Of a DNA stretch of 39,783 bases, positions 3,974 through 32,568 are shown one piece after another; within the stretch, counting starts at the first letter, position 1, and every line of letters begins with the position of its first letter. The translations under genes were made by a program, and so were the position numbers. The stretch spans positions 1 to 39,783 of the IMG/VR virus record IMGVR_UViG_3300032144_000030; one strand, given 5' to 3'. The notes under the pieces are model-generated. The model had not been told where the DNA came from, searched no databases, and saw only the letters and a list, made by a program, of their open reading frames with translations. This stretch comes from a virus.

Positions 3974-4560
3974 AAATCATCGCATCGCTTTCACTCTGTT
4001 TTTTGACACTGCTCGCGCTCGGGCAGGCGTTCACACTCTCAGATACTGCATGGCTTGGGCAGCGCGTGGCGATTCCGGCGGGTGGTGGTCCTGACGCTTG
4101 GTATGACATTGAAGTGTCCGCAAACCGGGACACGCTTGCGGCGTATGTGCCGGCCTCGGAATACGTTTCGGCGGTGGTAACTGTTTCGCAAGCAGGGACG
4201 GCGACAAAGGCGCGGGTCTTCTCGAATAATTTTGGAGGCACAACCCAGAATATAAAAATGGCTCTTTACGCTTCCGGCGGCGGCGCTCCGATCGCAAGCG
4301 GGACGGTTTCGATTCTGAGCACGGATGACGACGTTTACAAAGAAATCACGTTCGACACCCCCGTTGCGGTCACGGCGACGACTTATATTCTGGCGTGGTG
4401 TGCCGACTCGGCAAATGTGGGCTGGTACCACAATGCGGGAGTCGGGGCGACCGATATTTACACGGGAGTCGGTTACTCGGGCTTCCCTGAGAACCCATTG
4501 GACACGCCGACGTTCCCCGACCTTTCGAGAAATGCCTGTGTGAGCCTATACGTTGACTGA
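3967..4560 (+). CDS. Exported hypothetical protein (beta-sandwich)
   Basis: A 197-residue protein. MVK followed by IIASLSLCFLTLLALGQA is a clear signal peptide. The mature part is rich in aromatic residues and strands (W-x-x-Q-R-V, A-L-Y-A-S-G-G-G, I-L-A-W-C-A-D-S) and resembles a jelly-roll or choice-of-anchor type carbohydrate-binding domain, with the layout surface protein, ALY-x-S-x-G, then a late ILAW-type strand. That is a fold guess. The start overlaps the stop of the fibre gene by seven bases and the stop overlaps the next start as TGATG. Exported and possibly sugar-binding, by inference. Confidence 0.7.
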   Translation: MVKIIASLSLCFLTLLALGQAFTLSDTAWLGQRVAIPAGGGPDAWYDIEVSANRDTLAAYVPASEYVSAVVTVSQAGTATKARVFSNNFGGTTQNIKMALYASGGGAPIASGTVSILSTDDDVYKEITFDTPVAVTATTYILAWCADSANVGWYHNAGVGATDIYTGVGYSGFPENPLDTPTFPDLSRNACVSLYVD

Positions 4561-7043
4561 TGACAACCCCGCAAAAACATGCTAGAGGTAAAGTCCATGA
4601 AGACTTACCTGCCTGCGCTGGACGCGACCGAACCGATCTGGGTTGGCTGCTACATTGCCGCCGTGTTGTTCGGTCTGGTCTGCGCGGGCTTCTTGGTTTG
4701 GCGATCGCGGCGGCGCTCCTGAGTTCCGCCTTCGCCGCGTCTGATTCTTACCTCGCTTACTCCGTCACGAACTGGCACGGCGCGGGCAACTCGGATCGCA
4801 GCTATCTCGCGGTTGCCGGCGACAGTATTCCTCTGAGCTACACGGAGGTTGGTGGCGGCAGTGTCACGATTCTGAGTGCCACGCTCATTGCGCAACTCAG
4901 CGAAACGGGCATGTCCTCCACGAACACCGCCGTTGCAGGCGAGAAATACGAGGAGATTTACCCACGCGCAACCAACGTTCTCGCGCAACGGCGTCCGCGC
5001 TTCCTCGTCGTCTCCGCTCCGCACAACACGATTGTAGATGCGTTCAACGTGCCGGCGCAGTCGTGGTCTTGGTGGCTCTCGACGAACAACGCCCTCCTCG
5101 CTCAGTGTCAGGCGAGCAATACGTTTCTGTTGATGATCGAAGCGATTCCGAACAACGCGGACACCCACGCCAAGCTGACGAATTGGAATTGGAATCTGAA
5201 TCTTTGGGTGGCGACGAACACGGGCGTAGCAGCCACAACCGGGTTGTTCGACATCATGAAAGACCCCGGTTCGCCCATGACGATGTTGGACGCCTACGAT
5301 TTTGACGGGCGGCACATGACGCTGGTCGGGCAGACGCAATACTGCCGCGTCGTGCTCACGAATCTGATTGCGGCCGTGAAGAAAAACGCGGCCTCGGCAT
5401 CACGGGCGGACGTGGGCTCGGCTTACGCGCAGGCCCGCTACGGGGACACGCTGATAATCCCAGCCGGCACGGCCTCTTGGGACACGACCTTGAGCGTGAC
5501 CAATCCCATCAACATCACTGGCGCGGGCGCGACCACGCGGCTGCTTTGCGACAGCAACACGCCACTGTTCGACTTCACCCTGTCCGGCTACATCAACCGG
5601 ACGCAGAAGGTTTCCAACTTGAAGTTTGATGCGGGAACAACGCCGTCAACGGCGGCGTGGTGGTATATCCGGGACTGCAACACCAACAACAATCGCATGA
5701 TGGTGTCGAATATGTTTTACACGAACACGACCGCCCCTTGCCCGTTCGTGCTCGGTGCGGTGGGTGTGATGACCTCAAACCGTTGGGACATTACCTCCGG
5801 CATCGGGCTTTACATATATCACCAGAATTGGAACGGCGAACTCTACTCGCGTGGCTCGTTTTATGATCCGGTGGATTACAACTCGGACGAGTTTTGGATT
5901 GTGGAAGGCTCGGTCATCAATGGCAGCGGCGCGGCCTACGCCTTCACGGACGCCTATCGCGGCGCTCGCTACTGGGTTCGTTACTCGCATCTGACCAATC
6001 GCTGGCTTGAAGCGCATGGCACAGAGAGCGGATTTGTGGGCGGCACGCGGGCCGTCGTGAGCGATCACAACATTTTTCACGGCGACGGCTCCAGCACTTA
6101 CGCGCACAACATGCGGAGCGCCACTTTGATTGCGTTCTCGAATCGCGTTCACAACGCCGGCAGCGCGGCGAACTTTGGACACCTTGACTCGTATCGCAAA
6201 ACCGTGCTTGCCGAGCCGTGGGGCGCGGCGACGGGTGAGAATCCGATAGATGGCAACGACGCCACGATCTACGCGCACGGGCGCGCTTCTGGTGGCGGGG
6301 AAATGTATCTCGTGGACAGCACAAAAAGTTGGACGCCGATGGAATGGGTTGGATACCAGCTCGCGCGCACCAATCCACTGACCGCCGACACCACGGCGTT
6401 GACGGACTTCCGTTCGGGTTACATCACGTCGAACAGCGCGACGGTCATTCATGTGGACAACAACATCGGCGGCGCGTTTCCCGACATCGAATTTGCGGCG
6501 AGCGATGACTACCGGGTTTTGAAAGTGAATCAAGCCTTCGACCAGCCAGGCGTGAAAGACAATGTGCAGTGGACGTGGCGGAAGAACTCGGCCTTGACCG
6601 TCTCCGCCAACGTGGCCAGCGCCACGATGACCGCGCATGGCTTCAGCACGGGTGATTACATCATCGTGGGGGATTTGATTATTGCGCCCGCGTCGCTGAC
6701 GACGATGGCGCAGATCACCGTGACGGGAACGGACACCTACACCTTCCCGCTCTATACCGCCAACGGCACAGCCAGCGCGCAGTTCGAGGGCTGGGTTTAC
6801 AAAATCCTGACCTACAACCAGGGGCTGGACCCGTGCTACGAATGGGGCAACAAGCGCAGTGATGAAGCGGACCTGGACTTCGCGCCGTCCTTCGTGGCCA
6901 TTCGCGAGAACGAGCATTTCTACAACGACACGGTGAAGCCGGGTTATACCGGAATCCCGTTTCCGTGGGGCAGCACGCCAACTCCCTCAATGACCGTCTC
7001 CGGCAACGTGACGGTGGGCGGGAATGTGACCATTGGACAATGA
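4560..7043 (+). CDS. Exported spike: SGNH hydrolase plus beta-helix
   Basis: An 827-residue reading frame. A hydrophobic signal-like helix (LLGLAIAAALLSSAFA) ends near residue 60. Next comes an SGNH/GDSL hydrolase domain: block I GDSI (S89), N in SAPHNT (block III), and block V D249-G-R-H252, giving a plausible Ser-Asp-His triad for removing acetyl groups from polysaccharide. From about residue 295 a right-handed beta-helix follows (YGDTLIIPAGTASW, INITGAG, then many Asn-rich coils), as in tailspikes. The C-terminus repeats V-x-G-N-V-x-x-G. Residues 1-45 look unlike protein and lie over another small gene in a different frame, so the true start may be CTG 4680 or TTG 4698 rather than the coupled ATG at 4560. 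Role: capsule or envelope depolymerisation, inferred. Confidence 0.75.
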   Translation: MTTPQKHARGKVHEDLPACAGRDRTDLGWLLHCRRVVRSGLRGLLGLAIAAALLSSAFAASDSYLAYSVTNWHGAGNSDRSYLAVAGDSIPLSYTEVGGGSVTILSATLIAQLSETGMSSTNTAVAGEKYEEIYPRATNVLAQRRPRFLVVSAPHNTIVDAFNVPAQSWSWWLSTNNALLAQCQASNTFLLMIEAIPNNADTHAKLTNWNWNLNLWVATNTGVAATTGLFDIMKDPGSPMTMLDAYDFDGRHMTLVGQTQYCRVVLTNLIAAVKKNAASASRADVGSAYAQARYGDTLIIPAGTASWDTTLSVTNPINITGAGATTRLLCDSNTPLFDFTLSGYINRTQKVSNLKFDAGTTPSTAAWWYIRDCNTNNNRMMVSNMFYTNTTAPCPFVLGAVGVMTSNRWDITSGIGLYIYHQNWNGELYSRGSFYDPVDYNSDEFWIVEGSVINGSGAAYAFTDAYRGARYWVRYSHLTNRWLEAHGTESGFVGGTRAVVSDHNIFHGDGSSTYAHNMRSATLIAFSNRVHNAGSAANFGHLDSYRKTVLAEPWGAATGENPIDGNDATIYAHGRASGGGEMYLVDSTKSWTPMEWVGYQLARTNPLTADTTALTDFRSGYITSNSATVIHVDNNIGGAFPDIEFAASDDYRVLKVNQAFDQPGVKDNVQWTWRKNSALTVSANVASATMTAHGFSTGDYIIVGDLIIAPASLTTMAQITVTGTDTYTFPLYTANGTASAQFEGWVYKILTYNQGLDPCYEWGNKRSDEADLDFAPSFVAIRENEHFYNDTVKPGYTGIPFPWGSTPTPSMTVSGNVTVGGNVTIGQ
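4597..4722 (+). CDS. Small single-span membrane protein inside the spike gene start
   Basis: A 41-residue frame that overlaps the first 54 codons of the spike gene in another frame. It has one of the better ribosome sites in the region, GAGGT about eight bases before the ATG. The product has a short outer part, one transmembrane helix (VGCYIAAVLFGLVCAGFLV) and a basic tail WRSRRRS, which predicts C-terminus inside. Over this stretch its composition looks more like real protein than the spike frame does. It could be a holin-like or pinholin-like peptide, or a regulator of spike translation. Function unknown. Confidence 0.5.
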   Translation: MKTYLPALDATEPIWVGCYIAAVLFGLVCAGFLVWRSRRRS

Positions 7044-7444: not shown

Positions 7445-7846
7445 ATGGCAGGCACAAACTCAAACGCCCTCGAAAACTCCATCGTAGATCACGTCTGCGG
7501 CACGACTGACTTCACCTTCGTCGCGCAGCTTTACCTCGCGGTGTTCACCACCAATCCCGACTTTGAAACCGGCAGCGGCGGCACAGAAGCCAGCGGCGGG
7601 TCTTACGCGCGCAAGGCGATTGACTTCACGGCGGCGTCTGGCGGTGCAACGTCCAACTCTGGCGCGGTCGCATGGACAGCGGGCACTGACATTACAGCTG
7701 CCAGCTACACCGGGTATGCGGTTTACTCCGCAAGCTCGGGCGGCACGATGCGTTTTGGTGACGCGTTCGGAACAACTAAAACCCTCACGGGCGCGGGCGA
7801 CATTCTAAACTTCGCCATCGGCAGCGTCACCTACTCCACGACCTAA
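7445..7846 (+). CDS. Phage structural protein, tail-fibre-associated family
   Basis: A 133-residue protein rich in G, S, T and A. The pattern LYLAVFTTNPDFETGSGG, then GGSYARKAIDF, then WTAGTDITAASYTGYAVYSA, matches a widespread small phage virion protein (L-x-L-F/H-T-x-x-P near the start, Y-x-R in the middle, a late strand with A-x-Y-x-x-x-x-G) usually annotated as a tail fibre or minor structural protein. The leader is AT-rich (AATAAAAAATTATG) with no Shine-Dalgarno. It starts a run of virion genes after the membrane-protein pair. Confidence 0.65.
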   Translation: MAGTNSNALENSIVDHVCGTTDFTFVAQLYLAVFTTNPDFETGSGGTEASGGSYARKAIDFTAASGGATSNSGAVAWTAGTDITAASYTGYAVYSASSGGTMRFGDAFGTTKTLTGAGDILNFAIGSVTYSTT

Positions 7847-14022: not shown

Positions 14023-14622
14023 GTGCCGCCGGAATTTCCAACGCAGCGATACGAGGAAGCCGTCGCCAAGGAGCGGTTCGCCCGCAGCGTCGTCTTTCTG
14101 GACCTGCCGGAAACGCTTTGCAGCGTCGAGGTTCTGCCGCTGGCGTTGCGGCACGTCGTCACGCTGGATGTGATTCGCTCCCCGTTCATCGCGGGCGGCG
14201 ACACCATCAAGCCGAGTGACGTGGTGAACTTCCTGTGGATTGTCAGCCCGCGCTTTGAACGGAGTCATCTCGCCAAGCGATGGTTTGCGCTCTGGCATCT
14301 TCGGAAAGTTCCATTCAACGAGGCAACTGTTCAAGCCATCGTCAACTTTGTGAGCGATGCCTTTGAAGACGCCGGTGGAGGCGGGCGGGCTGGGAAGCAA
14401 TTCTATTGCACGGCGGCGGGCATGGTGGACGCGATTGCCAGTCAATACGGCTGGACGGAGGAAACGATTCTCAACCTGCCAATTCGCCGTGCGATGCAAT
14501 ATGTCAACGCATCGGCGAAGCGCATCAACCCGCAGGCGACCCTATTCAACCCGTCCGAGCGCGTCCTGGTTGATTGGATGGGTGAGCGGGACGTGTGGTT
14601 AAAGGAGCAAGGAAAAAACTAA
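14023..14622 (+). CDS. Putative tail assembly chaperone
   Basis: A 199-residue helical protein starting at GTG directly after the previous stop. It is placed immediately before the tape measure gene, where tail assembly chaperones sit in siphophages. Sequence features: a hydrophobic middle (VVNFLWIVSPRFERS), a Gly-rich linker near residue 117 and a helical end with RRAMQYVNASAKRIN. No slippery sequence for a chaperone frameshift was obvious to me. The final TAA overlaps the next ATG as TAATG. Role assigned from position. Confidence 0.5.
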   Translation: MPPEFPTQRYEEAVAKERFARSVVFLDLPETLCSVEVLPLALRHVVTLDVIRSPFIAGGDTIKPSDVVNFLWIVSPRFERSHLAKRWFALWHLRKVPFNEATVQAIVNFVSDAFEDAGGGGRAGKQFYCTAAGMVDAIASQYGWTEETILNLPIRRAMQYVNASAKRINPQATLFNPSERVLVDWMGERDVWLKEQGKN

Positions 14623-15491
14623 TGACTGCCGAGGAGGTAATTCTAAAGCTTGGTCTGGACAACTCATCCCTGAAAAGCGGCATGGCGGGCGCGGATTACT
14701 TCGTGCAGAACTCCATGAAGGCCACGCTCAACTCGCTCAAGAATCTGGTGCGGGTCAACATGGTTTCAATGGCGTTTCAGGTGATGGATTATTGGGACCA
14801 AGTCACCGAGCACATCGCGGAGGTTATGTCTGGCTCGGAGCACTTCGCGCGCATGGCTGGATTTGCCAAAGAGCAGGCCGACGTTTGGAGGACGGCCAAC
14901 AAGGAGCGGTGGCTGGAGGAGGAGAAGCTTCGCAAGCAGCAAGAGCAGAACGCGAAGGACAAGGTGAAGCGCGCCATTCTCGACGGCGAGGTTCAGAGCG
15001 TCGAGCGTGAGACGCAGTTGATGCAGATCGCTGATGAGACGAAGCGCGAGGAAACACGGCTGAAGTTTCAGAAGGAAGAATTAAAGTTCCTTCGCAGCAA
15101 GATTGACTATCAGGCGAACACCGTCGAGCAAGGAAGGCAGATGCTCGCCGTCGCCAGGGCAGAGCAGGATGTTTTGCAAACCACTCAGCGACTCCAGGAG
15201 TTGCGGCAAAAAAACTTTGTCCCGCCAACCGTCGCCGCGCAAGCGCCGCAGGCAAAAAATCAAGCCTACCTCGACAATGTTAAATCGTCGCAGATTGAAT
15301 ACTTCTTCAACATCGCCCACAACGCGAAGGGTAACACGAAGGACAAATACCTTGGAATGGTGGACAAACTTATGGGCCGGGATCAAGGCGCGGACGGCAA
15401 GCTTGATGACGTAGTGACTGAGCTTCAAACCCTCACAGCGGGCATCAAAAAAACCGGCAAGCTCCCGGTTGAAATCTCACCACTCCCCTGA
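14622..15491 (+). CDS. Short tape measure protein
   Basis: A 289-residue protein. The N-terminus (EVILKLGLDNSSLKSGMAGA) is the typical opening of phage tape measures. It is followed by a hydrophobic helix around residue 45 and a long charged coiled coil (about residues 85-215, rich in K, E, R and Q). Tape measures set tail length at roughly 1.5 angstrom per residue, so this one predicts a short tail of about 40-45 nm. A fair ribosome site (AAGGAGCAAGG) lies upstream. The ATG at 14622 overlaps the previous stop. Confidence 0.7.
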   Translation: MTAEEVILKLGLDNSSLKSGMAGADYFVQNSMKATLNSLKNLVRVNMVSMAFQVMDYWDQVTEHIAEVMSGSEHFARMAGFAKEQADVWRTANKERWLEEEKLRKQQEQNAKDKVKRAILDGEVQSVERETQLMQIADETKREETRLKFQKEELKFLRSKIDYQANTVEQGRQMLAVARAEQDVLQTTQRLQELRQKNFVPPTVAAQAPQAKNQAYLDNVKSSQIEYFFNIAHNAKGNTKDKYLGMVDKLMGRDQGADGKLDDVVTELQTLTAGIKKTGKLPVEISPLP

Positions 15492-20059: not shown

Positions 20060-20363
20060 CCTGCCCAAAACACACCAGCAGGCGATGGAGATTATGGACT
20101 CCATGCCTGCAAATCTCGCGGGCGTTCTAAGGCAAATCTATTTCAAGCAAAAGCCGATAGCGGCGGCTTGTCGTGCTGCTGGATTCACAACCCCGGTCTG
20201 GTTGCAGTGGAAGTTGAGGGCGGTTTGTGCGGAGATGAAAATACAAAAACCAATTACTCCGGCGGGGTTTTTAATTTCCGGGAGAAAGTATGCCGCAGCG
20301 GTCCAAAGTATCCGCTACCTCGGTAAACAGCGCCCGGCCAAGGCTGTCGGGCCGGCGGGGTGA
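20052..20363 (+). CDS. Hypothetical protein, possible HTH
   Basis: A 103-residue basic protein. The middle (LRQIYFKQKPIAAACRAAGF, then TTPVWLQWKLRAVCAEM) has the spacing of a helix-turn-helix of the Fis or terminase-small type: a helix with A-A-A-C-R-A-A-G-F and then a second helix. So it may bind DNA. It ends in a convergent overlap of 49 bases with a leftward gene. The start at 20052 avoids a long overlap with 19778. Confidence 0.5.
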   Translation: MTNLPKTHQQAMEIMDSMPANLAGVLRQIYFKQKPIAAACRAAGFTTPVWLQWKLRAVCAEMKIQKPITPAGFLISGRKYAAAVQSIRYLGKQRPAKAVGPAG

Positions 20364-20620
20364 GTGGTTGGCGGTGAGGATGTAACTGTCCAAACCTTGA
20401 CCTCACTCTCCTTTACTACCGTCTCAAAAACTTGATGCGGCGCGGCGAAGTAGCCGGCCTTTGCGCCATCAATCCAAAAAGCCAGATCCCGCTTCCGCAT
20501 TTTCTCGGGCGGAATGATGCCAAATCGTTTGAGAAATTGAATGTCTTCACTTGTCGCTTTAAGGAAACAGCGGAGGAAGATAAGTGAGCATTTGATCGAG
20601 TAGCAGATTCCCTTTTTCAT
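20315..20620 (-). CDS. Hypothetical leftward protein
   Basis: A 101-codon leftward frame. Its middle, ATSEDIQFLKRFGIIPPEKM followed by RDLAFWIDGAKAG, follows the T-x-x-Q/D-x-x-x-L-x-x-x-GI pattern seen in small modules attached to nucleases and phage proteins, so it is probably real or a remnant. The first 20 residues (MKKGICYSIKCSLIFLRCFL) look poor and could reflect a wrong start. It overlaps the end of the rightward 20052 gene and would be read with the RHH gene at 20750. Confidence 0.4.
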   Translation of the reverse strand: MKKGICYSIKCSLIFLRCFLKATSEDIQFLKRFGIIPPEKMRKRDLAFWIDGAKAGYFAAPHQVFETVVKESEVKVWTVTSSPPTTHPAGPTALAGRCLPR

Positions 20621-20749: not shown

Positions 20750-21007
20750 TTACGCTGCTGCTAGTTGAGGCCCGAACGGCTGAAATTCGGGCGCATTAAA
20801 AGACATTCGCCTTGTGTCTTTGAGGCGCGCCAAGGTTGATTCTGCTTCTTTGCGCTTCCGGTTGGCGATTTGCTGTGCCGCCTTATCAAGCCCGTTCTCC
20901 AGGGCTACGCGCGCCAGGTCGCTATCAGTTGTTCCAAGCGTCTCCACGATTTTCATGAAGCGCGCCATGAACTTTTTGTCAGGTCTGCAAGAGACTACTG
21001 CTTTCAT
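20750..21007 (-). CDS. Ribbon-helix-helix regulator (leftward)
   Basis: An 85-residue protein. Layout is that of the Arc/MetJ fold: a strand with alternating residues (KAVVSCRP), helix A (DKKFMARFMKIVETLG), a turn (TTDS) and helix B (DLARVALENGLDKAAQQI), then a basic helix and a tail. RHH proteins bind DNA as dimers, the paired strands reading the major groove. ATG 21007 is preferred over TTG 21049 because it starts the strand directly. It is divergent from another likely RHH gene at 21148, with GTATAC boxes between them, so it is probably a repressor of one or both. Confidence 0.65.
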   Translation of the reverse strand: MKAVVSCRPDKKFMARFMKIVETLGTTDSDLARVALENGLDKAAQQIANRKRKEAESTLARLKDTRRMSFNAPEFQPFGPQLAAA

Positions 21008-21075
21008 TTTCAACTTTCGTTGACGGAAATTGTTTACCCTTTCCGCCAAGCTTTACAGGCTGACTCTAGCCCGTT

Positions 21076-21137
21076 GTATACATTCTGCAAGGAAGAAAAA
21101 GAAAATTCTTGTCAATGGGGTGTATACCCCGTATACA
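21076..21137. promoter_or_regulatory. Divergent control region with three GTATAC boxes
   Basis: Palindromic GTATAC occurs at 21076-21081, 21122-21127 and 21131-21136. The outer copies are extended as TTGTATAC and GTATACAA, so they face each other; the inner pair forms GGTGTATACCCCGTATAC. On the plus strand TTGTCA (21109-21114), a 17-base spacer and TATACA (21132-21137) make a good sigma70 promoter whose -10 lies in a box. On the minus strand a TATACA (21080-21075) lies in the first box. Binding would therefore shut each promoter. Confidence 0.6.
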
Positions 21138-21147
21138 AGTAAACAGC

Positions 21148-21345
21148 ATGAGTAACGCAACTCCCGCCGAAAAGAAAACCCCGGAAGTATTGAGCGCCAG
21201 AATCTTGGACCTTGAGCCGTTGGTGGCCAAATGGATTGCGCAAAACCCGAACGTTGCGCCGTCGCATCTTGTGAGGGTTGGCTTGAAGATGGCTTTGCGA
21301 CCGCTGGCTGGCAAGCGGTTCGCTCATCTTGTGGAGGACAAATGA
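21148..21345 (+). CDS. Second RHH-like regulator (rightward)
   Basis: A 65-residue protein. After a charged N-terminus there is a strand (EVLSARILD), helix A (LEPLVAKWIAQNP), a turn (NVAPS) and helix B (HLVRVGLKMALRPLAGK), which fits a ribbon-helix-helix protein. The start codon lies about 11 bases after a promoter -10, so the message is nearly leaderless. It is divergent from the RHH gene at 20750, like the mnt/arc pair of phage P22. A strong ribosome site near its end serves the helicase gene. Confidence 0.55.
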   Translation: MSNATPAEKKTPEVLSARILDLEPLVAKWIAQNPNVAPSHLVRVGLKMALRPLAGKRFAHLVEDK

Positions 21346-22703
21346 CCGCCCTCACCCCACAAAAGGATTACGCTGCGTTCATTGCGAATAAAACGCACCT
21401 AAGCACGCGCTCTGGCTTTGAGCCGCTTTGGATGCCGAACTTCCTCTTTCCTTTCCAGCGCGCTTTAACGACGTGGGCAATTCAGAAGGGCCGCGCGGCA
21501 ATCTTCGCGGATTGTGGACTTGGCAAGACGCCGATGCAGCTTGTTTGGGCGCAGAACGTCGTTGAGAAAACATGCAAGCCGGTTCTGATTCTGACACCGC
21601 TTGCGGTCGGCGCGCAGACCGTGCGCGAGGCTGAGAAGTTCGGGATTGAAGCCAAGCAATCACGCGACGGCAAGGTTGCCGCGCCCATCACCATCACGAA
21701 CTACCAACAGCTTCACAAATTCAACTGGCAGGACTTTTCCGGCGCGGTCTGTGACGAGTCTGGAATCCTCAAAAACTTCGACGGCGCGATCAAAAGCCAG
21801 GTTGTTGCCTTCATGCGCAAGCTTCACTTCCGGCTGCTTTGCACGGCGACGGCCGCGCCGAACGATTACATCGAGCTCGGGAACTCAAGCGAGGCATTGG
21901 GGTATCTGCGCAGAGTGGAAATGATGGCGCACTTCTTCAACCACGATGGCGGAGACACGTCGAAATGGAGGCTCAAGAAACACGCCGCGAAGCATATTTT
22001 CTGGCAGTGGGTTTGCACTTGGGCGCGCGCGGTATGCAAGCCTTCAGATGTTGGATGTTGCGATGATGGCTACGCGCTCCCAGAACTAAAAACCATCGAG
22101 CACATTATCCGCGCCCGGTCTGCAAATCCAGAATACCTATTCGACATGCCTGCGGTCGGGTTGGATGAGCAGCGTAAAGAGCGCAGGCGCACAATTAACG
22201 AGCGATGCGAAATGGCTTCATCGCTCATTAACAACACAGGAAATCCGGCTGTCGCGTGGTGCCATCTCAACGAGGAAGGCCACCTGCTTGAAAAGTTGAT
22301 TCCGGGCGCGGTTGAGGTTGAGGGCAGCGACCCGGACGAGTTCAAGGAAGAAACCTTTGAAGCTTTTGCGCGTGGTGATATTCGCGTTCTGGTTTCCAAG
22401 CCGGTCATCGCGGGATTCGGATTGAACTGGCAACACTGCGCACACCAGACGTTTTTCCCGTCACACTCTTTCGAGCAATGGTATCAGGCTATTCGCCGGT
22501 CGTGGCGCTTCGGGCAAGCCAACCCAGTTCGCATTGATGTGGTTGCCAGTGAAGGTGAGGCGGGTGTTCTCGCCAACATGAACCGCAAAGCTGCACAGGC
22601 AAACCACATGTTTTCCAAGCTGGTTGAGTCCATCAACAACGAGCTTCACGTTCCAAAAGCTGCAACCCACAACACTGAACCGAAAATCCCATCATGGCTA
22701 TAA
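21342..22703 (+). CDS. SNF2-type DNA helicase/translocase
   Basis: A 453-residue protein. Helicase superfamily 2 motifs are visible: I FADCGLGKT (residues 54-62), II VCDESG (near 136), III LLCTATAAPND (near 166), and VI QAIRRSWRFGQANPV (near 381), the last typical of SNF2 proteins. They use ATP to move along duplex DNA. Phages often place such a gene next to a DNA methyltransferase, as here (10-base overlap with 22694). The start uses a strong Shine-Dalgarno (GGAGGA) and shares ATGA with 21148. Likely roles are replication, recombination or DNA modification support. Confidence 0.85.
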   Translation: MTALTPQKDYAAFIANKTHLSTRSGFEPLWMPNFLFPFQRALTTWAIQKGRAAIFADCGLGKTPMQLVWAQNVVEKTCKPVLILTPLAVGAQTVREAEKFGIEAKQSRDGKVAAPITITNYQQLHKFNWQDFSGAVCDESGILKNFDGAIKSQVVAFMRKLHFRLLCTATAAPNDYIELGNSSEALGYLRRVEMMAHFFNHDGGDTSKWRLKKHAAKHIFWQWVCTWARAVCKPSDVGCCDDGYALPELKTIEHIIRARSANPEYLFDMPAVGLDEQRKERRRTINERCEMASSLINNTGNPAVAWCHLNEEGHLLEKLIPGAVEVEGSDPDEFKEETFEAFARGDIRVLVSKPVIAGFGLNWQHCAHQTFFPSHSFEQWYQAIRRSWRFGQANPVRIDVVASEGEAGVLANMNRKAAQANHMFSKLVESINNELHVPKAATHNTEPKIPSWL

Positions 22704-23623
22704 TCCAGCAAACGATTACCAAGCAATGCGCGCTCTACAACGGTGACTGCGTCGAAGTGATGAAGTCGCTACCAGAATCCAGCGTTGACATGGCGCTGTT
22801 CTCGCCGCCGTTCGCGGACCTTTACTGCTACTCAGACAGCCCGATGGACTTGGGCAACTGTAAAAACTATGACGAGTTCTTTGTCCATTTCGCGTTCGTA
22901 GTTGAAGGGCTCACTCGCGTGGTGAAGCCGGGTCGCATGTGCGTTGTGCATTGCATGGACATTCCGGCGATGAAAGAACGCGATGGATTCATCGGTATCA
23001 AAGACTTCTCTGGCGACATTATTCGCATGTTTCAAAAGCGTGGGTTCATCTACCACTCGCGGCACACCATCTGGAAAGACCCGCTCATCGAGGCCACGCG
23101 AACAAAGGCTCTGGGTTTGATGCACAAGCAACTTCAGAAGGACAGCATTAAGTCTCGCGCTGGACTGCCTGACTACCTTCTTGGATTCCGCAACGCTGGC
23201 GAAAACGCTGTTCCGATTGCACACCCTGAAGGGCTCACATCGTATTGCGGAAGCGATGACCCATCGAAGGGAATTTCCGGCATCAAGAAGTCTCACAACA
23301 TCTGGCGCGCTTACGCATCCCCTGTATGGATGGATGTTCGGCAAACAAAAACCCTCAACGCTCGCGCAGCGCGTGAGGCCGACGACGAGAAACATCTATG
23401 CCCGCTCCAACTCGACGTGATCGAGCGCGCGTGCGTGCTTTGGTCAAACCCCGGAGAGGTTGTCTTAACCCCGTTCATGGGAGTTGGTAGCGAGGTTTAC
23501 GCGGCTGTGCTGAATGGACGCAAGGCGATTGGGGTGGAGTTGAAGACCGCATACTACAATCAGGCCGTGAGAAACCTTGCGTCCGTTGATGACGCAACCG
23601 TTATGGATCTTCTCCATGTCTAA
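22694..23623 (+). CDS. DNA methyltransferase (N4/N6, beta-type order)
   Basis: A 309-residue protein. The catalytic motif IV is S-P-P-F near residue 37 (ALFSPPFADLY) and the AdoMet motif I lies late, TPFMGVGSEVYAAVLNGRKA near 258, which is the beta-class order of amino-methyltransferases (adenine-N6 or cytosine-N4). The end GVELKTAYYNQAVRNL is typical of phage enzymes of this type. There is no restriction endonuclease beside it, so it probably protects phage DNA or regulates it. It overlaps the helicase gene by 10 bases. Confidence 0.85.
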   Translation: MAIIQQTITKQCALYNGDCVEVMKSLPESSVDMALFSPPFADLYCYSDSPMDLGNCKNYDEFFVHFAFVVEGLTRVVKPGRMCVVHCMDIPAMKERDGFIGIKDFSGDIIRMFQKRGFIYHSRHTIWKDPLIEATRTKALGLMHKQLQKDSIKSRAGLPDYLLGFRNAGENAVPIAHPEGLTSYCGSDDPSKGISGIKKSHNIWRAYASPVWMDVRQTKTLNARAAREADDEKHLCPLQLDVIERACVLWSNPGEVVLTPFMGVGSEVYAAVLNGRKAIGVELKTAYYNQAVRNLASVDDATVMDLLHV

Positions 23624-23987
23624 TCTCCCCTCAATCGAATCCATCCACTGGGACTTCAAGACCGATGCCATGCGCCGCATGGCCGTCGCGGTCTGCAAGC
23701 TGGCAATCTCCAAAGGGCCGGAAACATTCTCCGCAAACAATCTTCCAGCATTTGACCACGGCGGCAGCGGCGTGGCCGGCGTCATATTTCATCGTCTCGT
23801 GAGCGATGGGGTGTTGAGCCGGGTAATGTTTTACCACGGCGTGGCGGCTTTTCCTGTCGTCGTCCTGAATCCTGGCGGGAACAAAATCAGCGTTTACCGG
23901 CTGAAATCTTGTTCGCTGGCGCTGCGGTTGATTGAGCTTAACGGCGGTCAAGAGCCGCAAGTCAAGCAGGAGGAAATGGCGATATGA
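23616..23987 (+). CDS. Hypothetical protein
   Basis: A 123-residue protein. It has a winged-helix-like layout: helix (MRRMAVAVCKLAISKGPETF), NNLP turn, a helix (GVAGVIFHRLVSDGVLSRV) and a beta wing (YRLKSC), so it may bind DNA. No family is named. It is coupled at both ends, overlapping the methyltransferase by eight bases and the pentapeptide gene as ATGA. Confidence 0.6.
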   Translation: MSNLPSIESIHWDFKTDAMRRMAVAVCKLAISKGPETFSANNLPAFDHGGSGVAGVIFHRLVSDGVLSRVMFYHGVAAFPVVVLNPGGNKISVYRLKSCSLALRLIELNGGQEPQVKQEEMAI

Positions 23988-24721
23988 AAATCCAAATTAA
24001 AAGCAGATGGAGCGGGCACATAATTTTTGAAACGGACGCGGAGAGTTTGGGCGCGGCGATTTTGGTTGCGCTAAAAGCAAGCGCGGACCTGCGCGGCGCG
24101 GACCTTCGCTGCGCGAACCTGTGCGACGCGAACCTGCGCGGCGCGAACCTGTGCGACGCGAACCTGCGCGGCGCGGACCTTCGCTGCGCGGACCTGTGCA
24201 GCGCGGACCTTCACTGCGCGGACATGCACGGTGCGAACCTGCGCGGCGCGGACCTGCGCGGCGCGGACATGCGCGGTGCGGACCTGCGCGGCGCGGACCT
24301 GCGCGGCGCGTACATGCACGGTGCGAACCTGCGCGGTGCGGACCTTCACTGCGCGGACATGCACGGTGCGAACCTGCGCGGTGCGAAAAACGCAGAGCTT
24401 CCAATCGCCGCGACCCGCATCCTTCCTGACGGCGATTTAATCGGTTGGAAGAAATGCCGACATGGAGTGATTGTAAAACTGCTTGTTCCAGCAAAAGCAA
24501 AGCGCTCTCACGCTTTCGGGCGAAAGTGCAGGGCTGAGTTTGTGGAGGTTTTGGAAGTGATGGGGAAAGAAGGCATCAGCAGTTATGACCCTGACGTGAA
24601 ATACGTCGTCGGGGAAATTGTTAAGCCAAAAGAAAAGTTTTCAGAGGATTGGCAGGACGAGTGCGCGTCCGGGATTCACTTCTTCATCACGCGACTGGAA
24701 GCGGAGAATTACGCGCTATGA
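23984..24721 (+). CDS. Pentapeptide-repeat protein with DUF5758-like C-terminus
   Basis: A 245-residue protein. Residues 34-133 are twenty perfect pentapeptides A-(D/N)-L/M-x-x (for example ADLRG, ANLCD, ADMHG), making five coils of a right-handed beta-helix. The C-terminal domain ends with ECASGIHFFITRLEAENYAL, matching the DUF5758 domain often fused to such repeats in phages. Some pentapeptide proteins mimic DNA and protect or inhibit gyrase; this function is possible but untested for the fused family. It lies between the methyltransferase and Lar-like genes. Confidence 0.85.
   Translation: MKIQIKSRWSGHIIFETDAESLGAAILVALKASADLRGADLRCANLCDANLRGANLCDANLRGADLRCADLCSADLHCADMHGANLRGADLRGADMRGADLRGADLRGAYMHGANLRGADLHCADMHGANLRGAKNAELPIAATRILPDGDLIGWKKCRHGVIVKLLVPAKAKRSHAFGRKCRAEFVEVLEVMGKEGISSYDPDVKYVVGEIVKPKEKFSEDWQDECASGIHFFITRLEAENYAL
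24083..24382 (+). repeat. Twenty tandem 15-bp coding repeats
   Basis: The pentapeptides are encoded by 20 near-identical 15-bp units (consensus GCGGACCTGCGCGGC). Codon choice is almost fixed from unit to unit, which points to recent expansion or gene conversion rather than an old diverged array. All frames on both strands stay open here as a by-product. Confidence 0.9.
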
Positions 24722-28417: not shown

Positions 28418-29241
28418 ACACGAACACAGCAATAGTTAAGAACACACCACAAACAAAGCCATCAGCCTTAAACCTGATGGCTTCAAGGTTGAGCGTCGAG
28501 CCGGCAAAGCTTCTCGACACACTCAAGAGCACGGTCTTTCAGAAGGCAACCAACGAGGAAATGCTGGCCCTCGTCACGGTCGCCAATGAATACGACCTGA
28601 ATCCATTCCTGAAGGAGATTTACGCATTCCCCGCGAAGGGCGGCGGCATCGTGCCGATTGTCTCTGTTGATGGTTGGAACAAGATGCTGATTCGCCAGCC
28701 CGCGTTCGACGGCATCAAGTTCGCGTTTGGCTACAAGGAGGACGGCAGCCTCGACAGTTGCACGGCGACCATCTTCATCAAGGACCGCAGCCATCCGGTT
28801 GAAATCACCGAATACTTCGACGAGTGCAAACGGAACACCGATCCTTGGAACAACATGCCGCGACGGATGCTGCGCAACCGAACGCTGTGTCAGGCGTCCC
28901 GTGTTGCCTTTGGATTCTCCGGCATCCACAACGACGACGAGGCGCAGTCGTTCATTGATGTGTCGTCGTCTCCCGTGCCGTCAGAACCGCCACCGAAGAT
29001 GATTGCGGTCGCAAGTGATACCAGGCCGTCCGCGCGCGCAGAGCTTGAGGCCGTCGTGCTCGGCGCAGGCTTCACGTTTGAGCAGCTTCGCGCGTTCGGT
29101 GAGGCTTCAGGCAACATCAAGGACGCGAGCAGCGTCGGCGCGTTCTCTGAAATCTCCGAGGATGACGCCAAGCGGCTCGTCCGCGCGAAGGTTGGGCTTC
29201 TCAATTCACTGAAGTTGCAGACGGAAGGGGGTGAGAAGTGA
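28414..29241 (+). CDS. RecT/Bet-type single-strand annealing protein
   Basis: A 275-residue protein. The stretch from EYDLNPFLKEIYAFP (near residue 58) through VPIVSVDGWNKMLIRQP, then FGYKEDGSLDSCTATIFIKD, and WNNMPRRMLRNRTLCQASRV to FGFSGIHNDDEA (near 173), is the conserved core of the Bet/RecT family. These anneal single strands in homologous recombination and during phage replication. The C-terminal 80 residues (helical, ending EKTEGGEK-like) likely bind SSB or partners. No exonuclease is recognisable nearby, but several small unknown genes follow. Start shares ATGA with 28244. Confidence 0.9.
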   Translation: MNTNTAIVKNTPQTKPSALNLMASRLSVEPAKLLDTLKSTVFQKATNEEMLALVTVANEYDLNPFLKEIYAFPAKGGGIVPIVSVDGWNKMLIRQPAFDGIKFAFGYKEDGSLDSCTATIFIKDRSHPVEITEYFDECKRNTDPWNNMPRRMLRNRTLCQASRVAFGFSGIHNDDEAQSFIDVSSSPVPSEPPPKMIAVASDTRPSARAELEAVVLGAGFTFEQLRAFGEASGNIKDASSVGAFSEISEDDAKRLVRAKVGLLNSLKLQTEGGEK

Positions 29242-29609
29242 AACTTGAAATACACCTCGCATCCGTGAAGGTGATGCGGTCGCACGACTACTGTCATTTC
29301 GAAGTTAATCTGTCGGCGTCGATTGACTGCCCGCCTGAATCTCCTGAATGGTTTCAACATGTGGACGGCCTACGAAAGAACGCGGCAAGGCTCGCAGACA
29401 AGGCTGTTGAGCAATACAAGGTCGCAAAGGCGGCACACCAATCCGAGGAAAGTTCATTTGACTCCATGCGCTACGCGGCGGAAAACGCGATGAGAACGCC
29501 GGAGGCTGAGCGCACACCCAATGAAATGGCCGCTATTAAAGCGCTGGCGGATGCTCGCTTCTCACAGCGGCATTACGACTACCAAGACGACTGGGAGGAG
29601 TATCAATGA
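29238..29609 (+). CDS. Hypothetical protein downstream of the annealing gene
   Basis: A 123-residue protein starting at GTG 29238 (GTGA overlap). A beta-strand N-terminus (KLEIHLASVKVMRSHDYCHF) is followed by long helices (KAVEQYKVAKAAHQSEESSF). It ends in acidic residues DYQDDWEEYQ, like a DNA-mimic or SSB-type tail. No family is recognised. Its place in the operon suggests recombination or replication use. Confidence 0.6.
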   Translation: MKLEIHLASVKVMRSHDYCHFEVNLSASIDCPPESPEWFQHVDGLRKNAARLADKAVEQYKVAKAAHQSEESSFDSMRYAAENAMRTPEAERTPNEMAAIKALADARFSQRHYDYQDDWEEYQ

Positions 29610-29797
29610 ACGCCAAATTAGTTTCAAAAATAAACGAAATCCATGCCGTCGTCGTGAATGGAAGCCCGTCCAATGACGAGCTTGTGAGGCGCGCCCGCGC
29701 TGTCGTGGATGCTCGCCACTACAACGGAGACGACGGTTGGGATAAACTCAAGAATGCCATTAGTGAGCTTGAGGGGCTTGTTGGGAGGACGCAATGA
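29606..29797 (+). CDS. Small helical hypothetical protein
   Basis: A 63-residue helical protein (MNAKLVSKINEIHAVVVNGS, then ELVRRARAVVDARHY, then DKLKNAISELEGLVGRTQ). No family is known to me. It is coupled as ATGA on both sides within the recombination operon. Confidence 0.55.
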   Translation: MNAKLVSKINEIHAVVVNGSPSNDELVRRARAVVDARHYNGDDGWDKLKNAISELEGLVGRTQ

Positions 29798-31607: not shown

Positions 31608-31618
31608 GTGTTTTATGA
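31604..31618 (+). repeat. 15-bp direct repeat, copy 2 of 2
   Basis: Exact repeat of 31405-31419, at the start of the radical SAM gene. The repeat supplies GGTGAG as a ribosome site before ATG 31615. Confidence 0.8.
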
Positions 31619-32568
31619 AGCCCGCCTTTTTCCTCAACATTGATATTCTCGGCGTCTGCAATCTCGCCTGCCCGACCTGCCCGCATGGGAATGATGATCG
31701 CACCTTGACGCCGCGAGGGATGATGGACCTTGAATTGTTTGAGGCGATTCTAGACAAGGCGCAGCGTGAATGCACGGTCACGGGCGTTGGTTTGTTTTCC
31801 TGGACTGAGCCTTTGTTGCATCCACACTGCGCTCTCTTTGTCACGGCCTGCAAGCTGCGCGGCATTCCCTGCCATCTCTCAACCAACCTGAACAACATCC
31901 GCAACCTGGATGCAACGCTGCGGGCTGGGCCGGACACGTTGCGTGTGTCGGTGAGTGGATCCACGAATGAAACTTATCAACAAACGCACGCGCGCGGCGA
32001 CGTGGAGCGGGTGAAGGACAATCTCGTTTTGCTTTGGCAGAGCGTGCCGGTGCGCCAAGGGACGATCCAGGTGACAGTTTTTTGGCATCGCTACAAGCAC
32101 AACGCGAACGAGGAGGATTTCATGCGGGAGTTTGCGACCGACCTTGGATTCAAATTTGAGACGTGCGAGGCGTATTTAATGCCGTTGGAAACTGTGTTGC
32201 GGCGGTGGAGTGGTGAGCGGGCGATGTTGGTGATTGAGGAACTGCTTTGGACGCCGTTACAGGTGGCGAAGCAACAGTGCGAACCGCACGCCGGCATGCC
32301 ATGTCGTTTGCAAACGCGCGAGATAACCATAGACGCCAACGGTGGGGTGCATCTGTGTTGCGCTTTATATGATCCCAAGCTTTCGCTCATTGGAAGGTTT
32401 CTCGACATGACGTTGGCTGACATTCAGGCGCGGAAGATTATGAGCGAGCAATGCTCAACCTGCCTCAAGGCTGGTGGGCATGTTTACGCAACGTTCGGTT
32501 GGAAGCGTCGGGAGCGATGGCAGCAAAAGCTGGGCAATTTACGTGCGAAAATCAGAAGTTGGATGTGA
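31615..32568 (+). CDS. Radical SAM enzyme with SPASM-like C-terminus
   Basis: A 317-residue protein. The cluster motif C15-x3-C19-x2-C22 (VCNLACPTCPHG) binds the 4Fe-4S that splits S-adenosylmethionine. A TIM-barrel-like body follows (GVGLFSWTEPLLHPH, then LSTNLNNI, LRVSVSGSTNETY), with conserved spacing for this superfamily. The end has further cysteines, a C-R motif near 230, L-C-C, and C-S-T-C, as in SPASM domains that bind an extra cluster; its W-T-E-P-L motif fits radical SAM enzymes that act on peptides or sugars. No substrate gene is obvious. The ribosome site is GGTGAG. Why a phage carries it is open; modification of host peptide, tail fibre or nucleotide are all possible. Confidence 0.85.
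   Translation: MKPAFFLNIDILGVCNLACPTCPHGNDDRTLTPRGMMDLELFEAILDKAQRECTVTGVGLFSWTEPLLHPHCALFVTACKLRGIPCHLSTNLNNIRNLDATLRAGPDTLRVSVSGSTNETYQQTHARGDVERVKDNLVLLWQSVPVRQGTIQVTVFWHRYKHNANEEDFMREFATDLGFKFETCEAYLMPLETVLRRWSGERAMLVIEELLWTPLQVAKQQCEPHAGMPCRLQTREITIDANGGVHLCCALYDPKLSLIGRFLDMTLADIQARKIMSEQCSTCLKAGGHVYATFGWKRRERWQQKLGNLRAKIRSWM

Follow-up and report, generated by a model that had tools for sequence, protein, structure and literature searches.

Results

Two small divergent ORFs precede a helicase operon

The window analysed here is a linear virus record, 39,783 bases long, whose PHROG matches identify it as a contig of a tailed phage. These matches placed terminase and portal genes at the right end, a head protein at 7445, and Bet-like annealing, ParB-like and primosomal proteins mid-window. 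ORF calling gave two small divergent ORFs at 20750-21345, separated by 140 bp (Table 1). A codon model for which 15 long window genes served as training set scored the minus frame at 2.2 and the plus frame at 0.9. These scores are low; the remaining frames were all negative, and each small ORF was the sole positive frame of six within its own interval. ORF positions and codon support thus bear out a preliminary description of this DNA, in which two small genes were transcribed away from each other. Shine-Dalgarno-like motifs were present at 12 of the 47 ORF starts examined (start positions taken from the ORF finder). Both small ORFs lacked one, which is not unusual because such motifs are rare in the window.

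The stop codon of the plus ORF overlaps the helicase start codon in the sequence ATGA (21342-21345), and the start of the methyltransferase gene overlaps the end of the helicase gene. Because adjacent genes overlap, the plus ORF, helicase and methyltransferase look like one operon. On the minus strand, a second ORF of 101 aa (20315-20620) starts 129 bp from the small minus ORF. Its NCBIfam match, PRK14555, reached no better than E 0.00028 and fell far short of the cut-off; by eye the ORF contains a stretch resembling a short C-terminal motif of phage nucleases/helicases.

Table 1. Coordinates of the genes and proposed control elements at the locus
Feature	Position	Strand	Details
Small ORF "RHHm", possible RHH repressor	20750-21007	minus	85 aa, ATG start
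Palindrome TGTATACA, proposed second operator, leftward side	21075-21082		perfect palindrome, single GTATAC
Candidate rightward promoter, across double site	21109-21137	plus	TTGTCA (21109)-17 bp-TATACA (21132)
17-bp palindrome TGTATAC-CCC-GTATACA (TGTATACCCCGTATACA), proposed double-dimer operator	21121-21137		two GTATAC, centres 9 bp apart
Small ORF "RHHp", first gene of helicase operon	21148-21345	plus	65 aa, ATG start
SNF2-type DNA helicase	21342-22703	plus	phrog_62, E 4.2e-46
DNA methyltransferase, same operon as helicase	22694-23623	plus	phrog_67, E 4.6e-39

The same description stated that a CI/Cro-type HTH and an integrase are absent, and searches of the window agree with it. No integrase or CI/Cro repressor was found among 50 ORFs scanned against PHROGs at the limits used, and neither phage integrase (PF00589) nor HTH_3 (PF01381) was matched in six frames (E ≤ 1). 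Because the contig is linear and may be incomplete, the missing lysogeny genes prove little.

GTATAC palindromes are clustered between the two ORFs

We observed three copies of GTATAC in the 39,783 bases (21076, 21122 and 21131; shuffle mean 1.13). All three lie inside 61 bp (21076-21136) between the two small genes. We simulated 400 first-order Markov windows and compared all 64 palindromic hexamers; in no simulated window did any of them cluster equally tightly, which argues that the GTATAC cluster is non-random. The TGTATACA site sits 46 bp left of the 17-bp palindrome.

The preliminary description had placed GTATAC palindromes over both -10 elements, and half of this claim is supported. 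On the rightward side, the candidate promoter carries 9 of 12 consensus bases with its -10 element on the third GTATAC, and is weak in that 175 of 2000 simulated 140-mers equalled it. A transcript from this promoter would be nearly leaderless. On the leftward side, the minus strand of the gap held no convincing promoter (best pair equalled by 949/2000 simulated 140-mers). A strict promoter scan of the region found none. The proposed leader of the minus ORF contains an inverted repeat (21020-21049, minus strand) with 10-bp arms that are 90% complementary and a 10-nt loop, which could be a hairpin or another operator.

The minus-strand protein is perhaps an RHH protein

Both small proteins had been described as ribbon-helix-helix (RHH)-like, a reading that survives marginally for the minus protein and fails to find a family for the plus protein. 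The only Pfam match of the minus protein at E ≤ 10 was RelB (PF04221), an RHH family. This match aligned residues 3-64 to profile positions 2-63 and was below the cut-off (E 0.0055, 17 bits vs 22.4 bits). The plus protein matched no Pfam family at E ≤ 10 and no PHROG or NCBIfam family, and PF01402 had no match anywhere in the window (E ≤ 10).

We also scored both proteins against two in-house RHH models, the second built from 57 RHH_1/RelB sequences. The minus protein was beaten by 103/2000 and 80/2000 of its own shuffles in the first and second model, and the plus protein by 539/2000 and 1211/2000. This test is blunt both ways: with the second model, Arc was beaten by 33/2000 shuffles and Mnt by 10/2000, while among ten unrelated window proteins used as controls one was beaten by 19/2000 and so outscored the minus protein. 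Since even Arc and Mnt, which are genuine RHH proteins, gain only weak scores, the missing RHH signal of the plus protein is not proof of absence.

AlphaFold models of both proteins were single-sequence predictions made without an alignment. The AF2 model of the minus protein, which has one extra leading residue, was extended over 1-11 with helices at 12-24, 29-38 and 42-70 (pLDDT 67). This low-confidence model suggests a RelB-like succession of elements, in which an extended N-terminus is followed by two helices and then by a long C-terminal one; such an order fits an RHH protein. For the plus protein, only helices were predicted (12-20, 22-32, 38-53 and 55-62; pLDDT 61). Fold searches with both models gave empty or weak matches only, the input models being too weak. 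Histone-fold matches of the plus protein (Z 2.3-3.3) came from its low-confidence model and were not counted as evidence. The two proteins are not alike, as 286/1000 shuffles reached their alignment score. Taken from sequence and model, the minus protein is perhaps RHH; an RHH assignment of the plus protein is unsupported by its sequence.

Searches for relatives returned no homologue of either protein in viral contigs, phages (one chance match, E 0.7) or plasmids (one chance match, E 1), and no useful match among PDB sequences. No homologue of the minus protein was found in genome_contigs. Verrucomicrobia MAGs hold two of the three helicase relatives in genome_contigs; across 387 genomes from the phylum of a Verrucomicrobia MAG, each small protein matched in 2/387 (E ≤ 0.01 per genome), as by chance. 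By these sequence searches, both small proteins are orphans in every collection searched.

A divergent RHH-like trio precedes a related helicase

Relatives of the helicase were matched in 130 viral stretches, of which 80 were kept. The upstream survey covered 82 loci: 79 of these 80 viral loci, two of three genome loci, and the window. L080, which starts inside the match, and L088 were left out, and 74/82 loci had at least 600 nt upstream. RHH matches at E ≤ 0.1 were found in L023 and L024 (three ORFs each) and in L019, L020 and L022 (one each); the two small proteins of the window were absent from these matches, even up to E 5.

In L023/L024 (G004), a 98-bp gap is surrounded by a trio of small ORFs, two on the minus strand and one on the plus strand (L023 2900-4060; G004 28600-29750). 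As in the window, they stand before a helicase (71% identical) and a methyltransferase (54%), with repeats in the gap. Local alignment scores of 72-76 (0/1000 shuffles) mark the L023 trio as mutual paralogues, and each trio protein beat all 2000 shuffles with the 57-sequence model. Two of them, on opposite strands, matched PF01402, one over the cut-off. GGGAAC/GTTCCC occurs 16 times in the 45,599-base contig, and four of these copies lie within 89 bp in the 98-bp gap. Unlike the window, the motif is GGGAAC and not GTATAC, and there is no clear protein sequence relation; the best L023 comparison, between the minus protein and L023p, was equalled by 2/1000 shuffles and was one of 21 pairs.

Besides the helicase and methyltransferase, comparison of 35 window genes with the L023 contig gave only distantly related terminase subunits (24-27%) and a single match of 32 residues (E 7e-5). 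With so little else in common, this is a different phage in which the divergent arrangement is seen again. At 99.97% identity, L023 and L024 count as one parallel case. L019, L020 and L022 each carried one plus-strand RHH-like ORF ~0.5-0.9 kb before the helicase, and no divergent pair of the L023 kind was seen in the other surveyed upstream regions.

A small ORF at the helicase start in L046 looked RHH-like by eye and was rejected (no RHH family; 96/2000 shuffles better). Just before this ORF, which overlaps the start of a helicase of the same kind, lies a 19-bp palindrome, TATGTTGA-CTT-TCAACATA (L046 2215-2233).

Discussion

The locus looks like a genuine divergent control region, not a chance arrangement, in front of the replication operon of a phage. 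Its layout had been likened to the mnt/arc region of P22, and in layout the likeness holds: like P22 immI, it has two small divergent genes, palindromic sites between them, and a rightward small gene that is first in a short operon. In the P22 annotation (NC_002371), mnt (minus, 14519-14770) and arc (plus, 14861-15022) flank a 90-bp gap in which both operators lie over the two overlapping promoters, with ant downstream of arc. According to PMC11016777, Mnt represses arc and ant, and Arc represses mnt and tempers ant; as presented in PMC7549136 and PMC11016777, P22 mnt/arc shows that such a divergent layout works. Membership did not hold. The window's small proteins had no BLAST match to Arc or Mnt at E ≤ 10, and the window has the helicase and methyltransferase where P22 has ant. 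Arc and Mnt are 47.5% identical over 40 residues, whereas the window's two proteins are not alike, and P22 also carries c2/cro and int. The region thus resembles immI in layout and is not an immI member.

At about even probability, we favour an autoregulated arrangement like that of P22 immI, in which a divergent promoter-operator region governs the replication operon of the phage and the GTATAC sites are putative operators of a small repressor from one (most likely the minus) or both flanking genes. By analogy with P22 mnt/arc, a small dimeric repressor, most likely from the minus gene or else from both, would bind GTATAC, and its dimers would bind TGTATAC-CCC-GTATACA cooperatively. The 9-bp spacing of this double site would suit side-by-side dimers along the helix, a reading that follows spacing rules for RHH proteins. 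The occupied double site would block the rightward promoter of the plus ORF, helicase and methyltransferase, and repressor at TGTATACA, near the leftward start, would limit its own synthesis. Early in infection both promoters would fire, and the accumulating small proteins would damp the operon.

Four observations underlie this model: the divergent ORF pair, the non-random site cluster, the overlap that joins the plus ORF to the helicase gene, and a distant phage in which a trio more clearly RHH-like stands in the same place with its own repeat. We infer binding by either protein, the RHH fold, cooperativity and repression. The best support for the RHH reading is the L023/G004 trio, which bears on the window indirectly. 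SSV1 F55 resembles the proposed system as an RHH repressor of early genes, and in PMC5569661 F55 takes a lambda-CI-like role. It differs from the window in being one protein of an archaeal virus with tandem ATAGATAG sites. Among the papers listed by literature searches there was no bacteriophage switch in which two RHH proteins stand at the head of a helicase operon. The label "genetic switch" exceeds the evidence because no result points to two stable states or to a lysogenic one.

The minus protein may instead act alone, as an autoregulating RelB/RHH-like repressor, with the plus ORF encoding a small helical protein that is unrelated to it and is co-translated with the helicase. The RelB match of the minus protein, with none for the plus protein, would agree with this. 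So would the locus with the closest helicase (L001, 78%), where the helicase start is likewise overlapped by a small ORF, whose local alignment with the plus ORF centres on WIAxxPxV (score 32, 6/1000 shuffles, one of 21 pairs), and where the short upstream piece has no divergent gene. The L001 alignment spans only ~30 residues, however, and is not significant after 21 tests, and in L023 RHH-like genes flank the gap on both sides. We consider a single repressor rather unlikely. A toxin-antitoxin module, with the minus protein as a RelB-type antitoxin, would account for the same RelB match, but the next minus ORF starts 129 bp away without a toxin family match. No toxin partner was seen beside the minus gene, and its RelB match scored 17 against 22.4 bits; we dropped RelB/RelE and regard such a module as extremely improbable. 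The sites might also bind a host regulator or a phage protein encoded elsewhere. GntR-type regulators, for example, recognize TTGTATACAA, and several regulator families share palindromes of the TGTATACA type; against this, the contig's three sites all lie between the two small genes, which makes an outside regulator very unlikely.

The GTATAC copies could also be replication-origin iterons before a replication helicase and not operators. We scanned viral contigs for the site geometry (TGTATACN{25,55}TGTATACNNNGTATAC) and obtained 109 stretches, many of them coding repeats; by our own filter, nine were mainly non-coding GTATAC arrays. Four of the nine (L192, L198, L227 and L260) lie between VapE-like and VRR-NUC genes, families that we assigned by eye in L192 and that tblastn then matched in L198, L227 and L260. 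These genes are followed by a helicase-like frame in L260 (judged by eye) and by a weak helicase match in L227 (25%, E 7e-5), and small ORFs within 5 kb of the nine arrays gave no RHH match at E ≤ 1. Yet the window has three sites against 7-10 per array, its sites lie on promoter-like sequence, and its PHROG matches include no VapE or VRR-NUC name. The control hexamer GATATC, of the same composition, also gave 4/74 non-coding arrays, though none near VapE/VRR-NUC genes. An origin is therefore unlikely here: the three copies on promoter-like sequence fit an operator better than an iteron.

In their own right, the four phage arrays (L192 6366-6534; L198 434-592; L227 2868-3111; L260 4124-4406) have 7-10 copies of GTATAC, many as 9-bp-spaced pairs. 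They are possible origin iterons or operators.

A broader proposal is that the operator region belongs to an exchangeable cassette. Unrelated phages would set divergent RHH pairs, each with a private palindrome, before the helicase-methyltransferase operon, as an all-RHH counterpart of CI/Cro through which a phage lacking CI/Cro repressor and integrase could stay dormant or persist in a carrier state. We hold this to be speculative and decidedly unlikely. If the favoured reading of the window is true, tailed phages of uncultivated bacteria would place RHH-based early control directly on a replication operon. Integrase and CI genes are the usual basis for guessing the lifestyle of such phages, and the signature of divergent small genes and a private palindrome before a helicase would find switches that present annotation misses. 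If the region provides autorepression only, it is an ordinary phage control region.

Other features of the window

A pentapeptide-repeat protein with a C-terminal DUF5758 domain is encoded in the early region (23984-24721). A 62-kb contig, G001, was ruled out as a conservation test of the locus, being without this helicase and without any GTATAC. It shares little with the window besides a large protein of unassigned function (4560-7043), whose single viral-contig relative (L081, in G001) is 79% identical in the best segment. A Radical SAM-like protein (31615-32568; phrog_21308, E 9e-14) has a 32% relative in the same contig.
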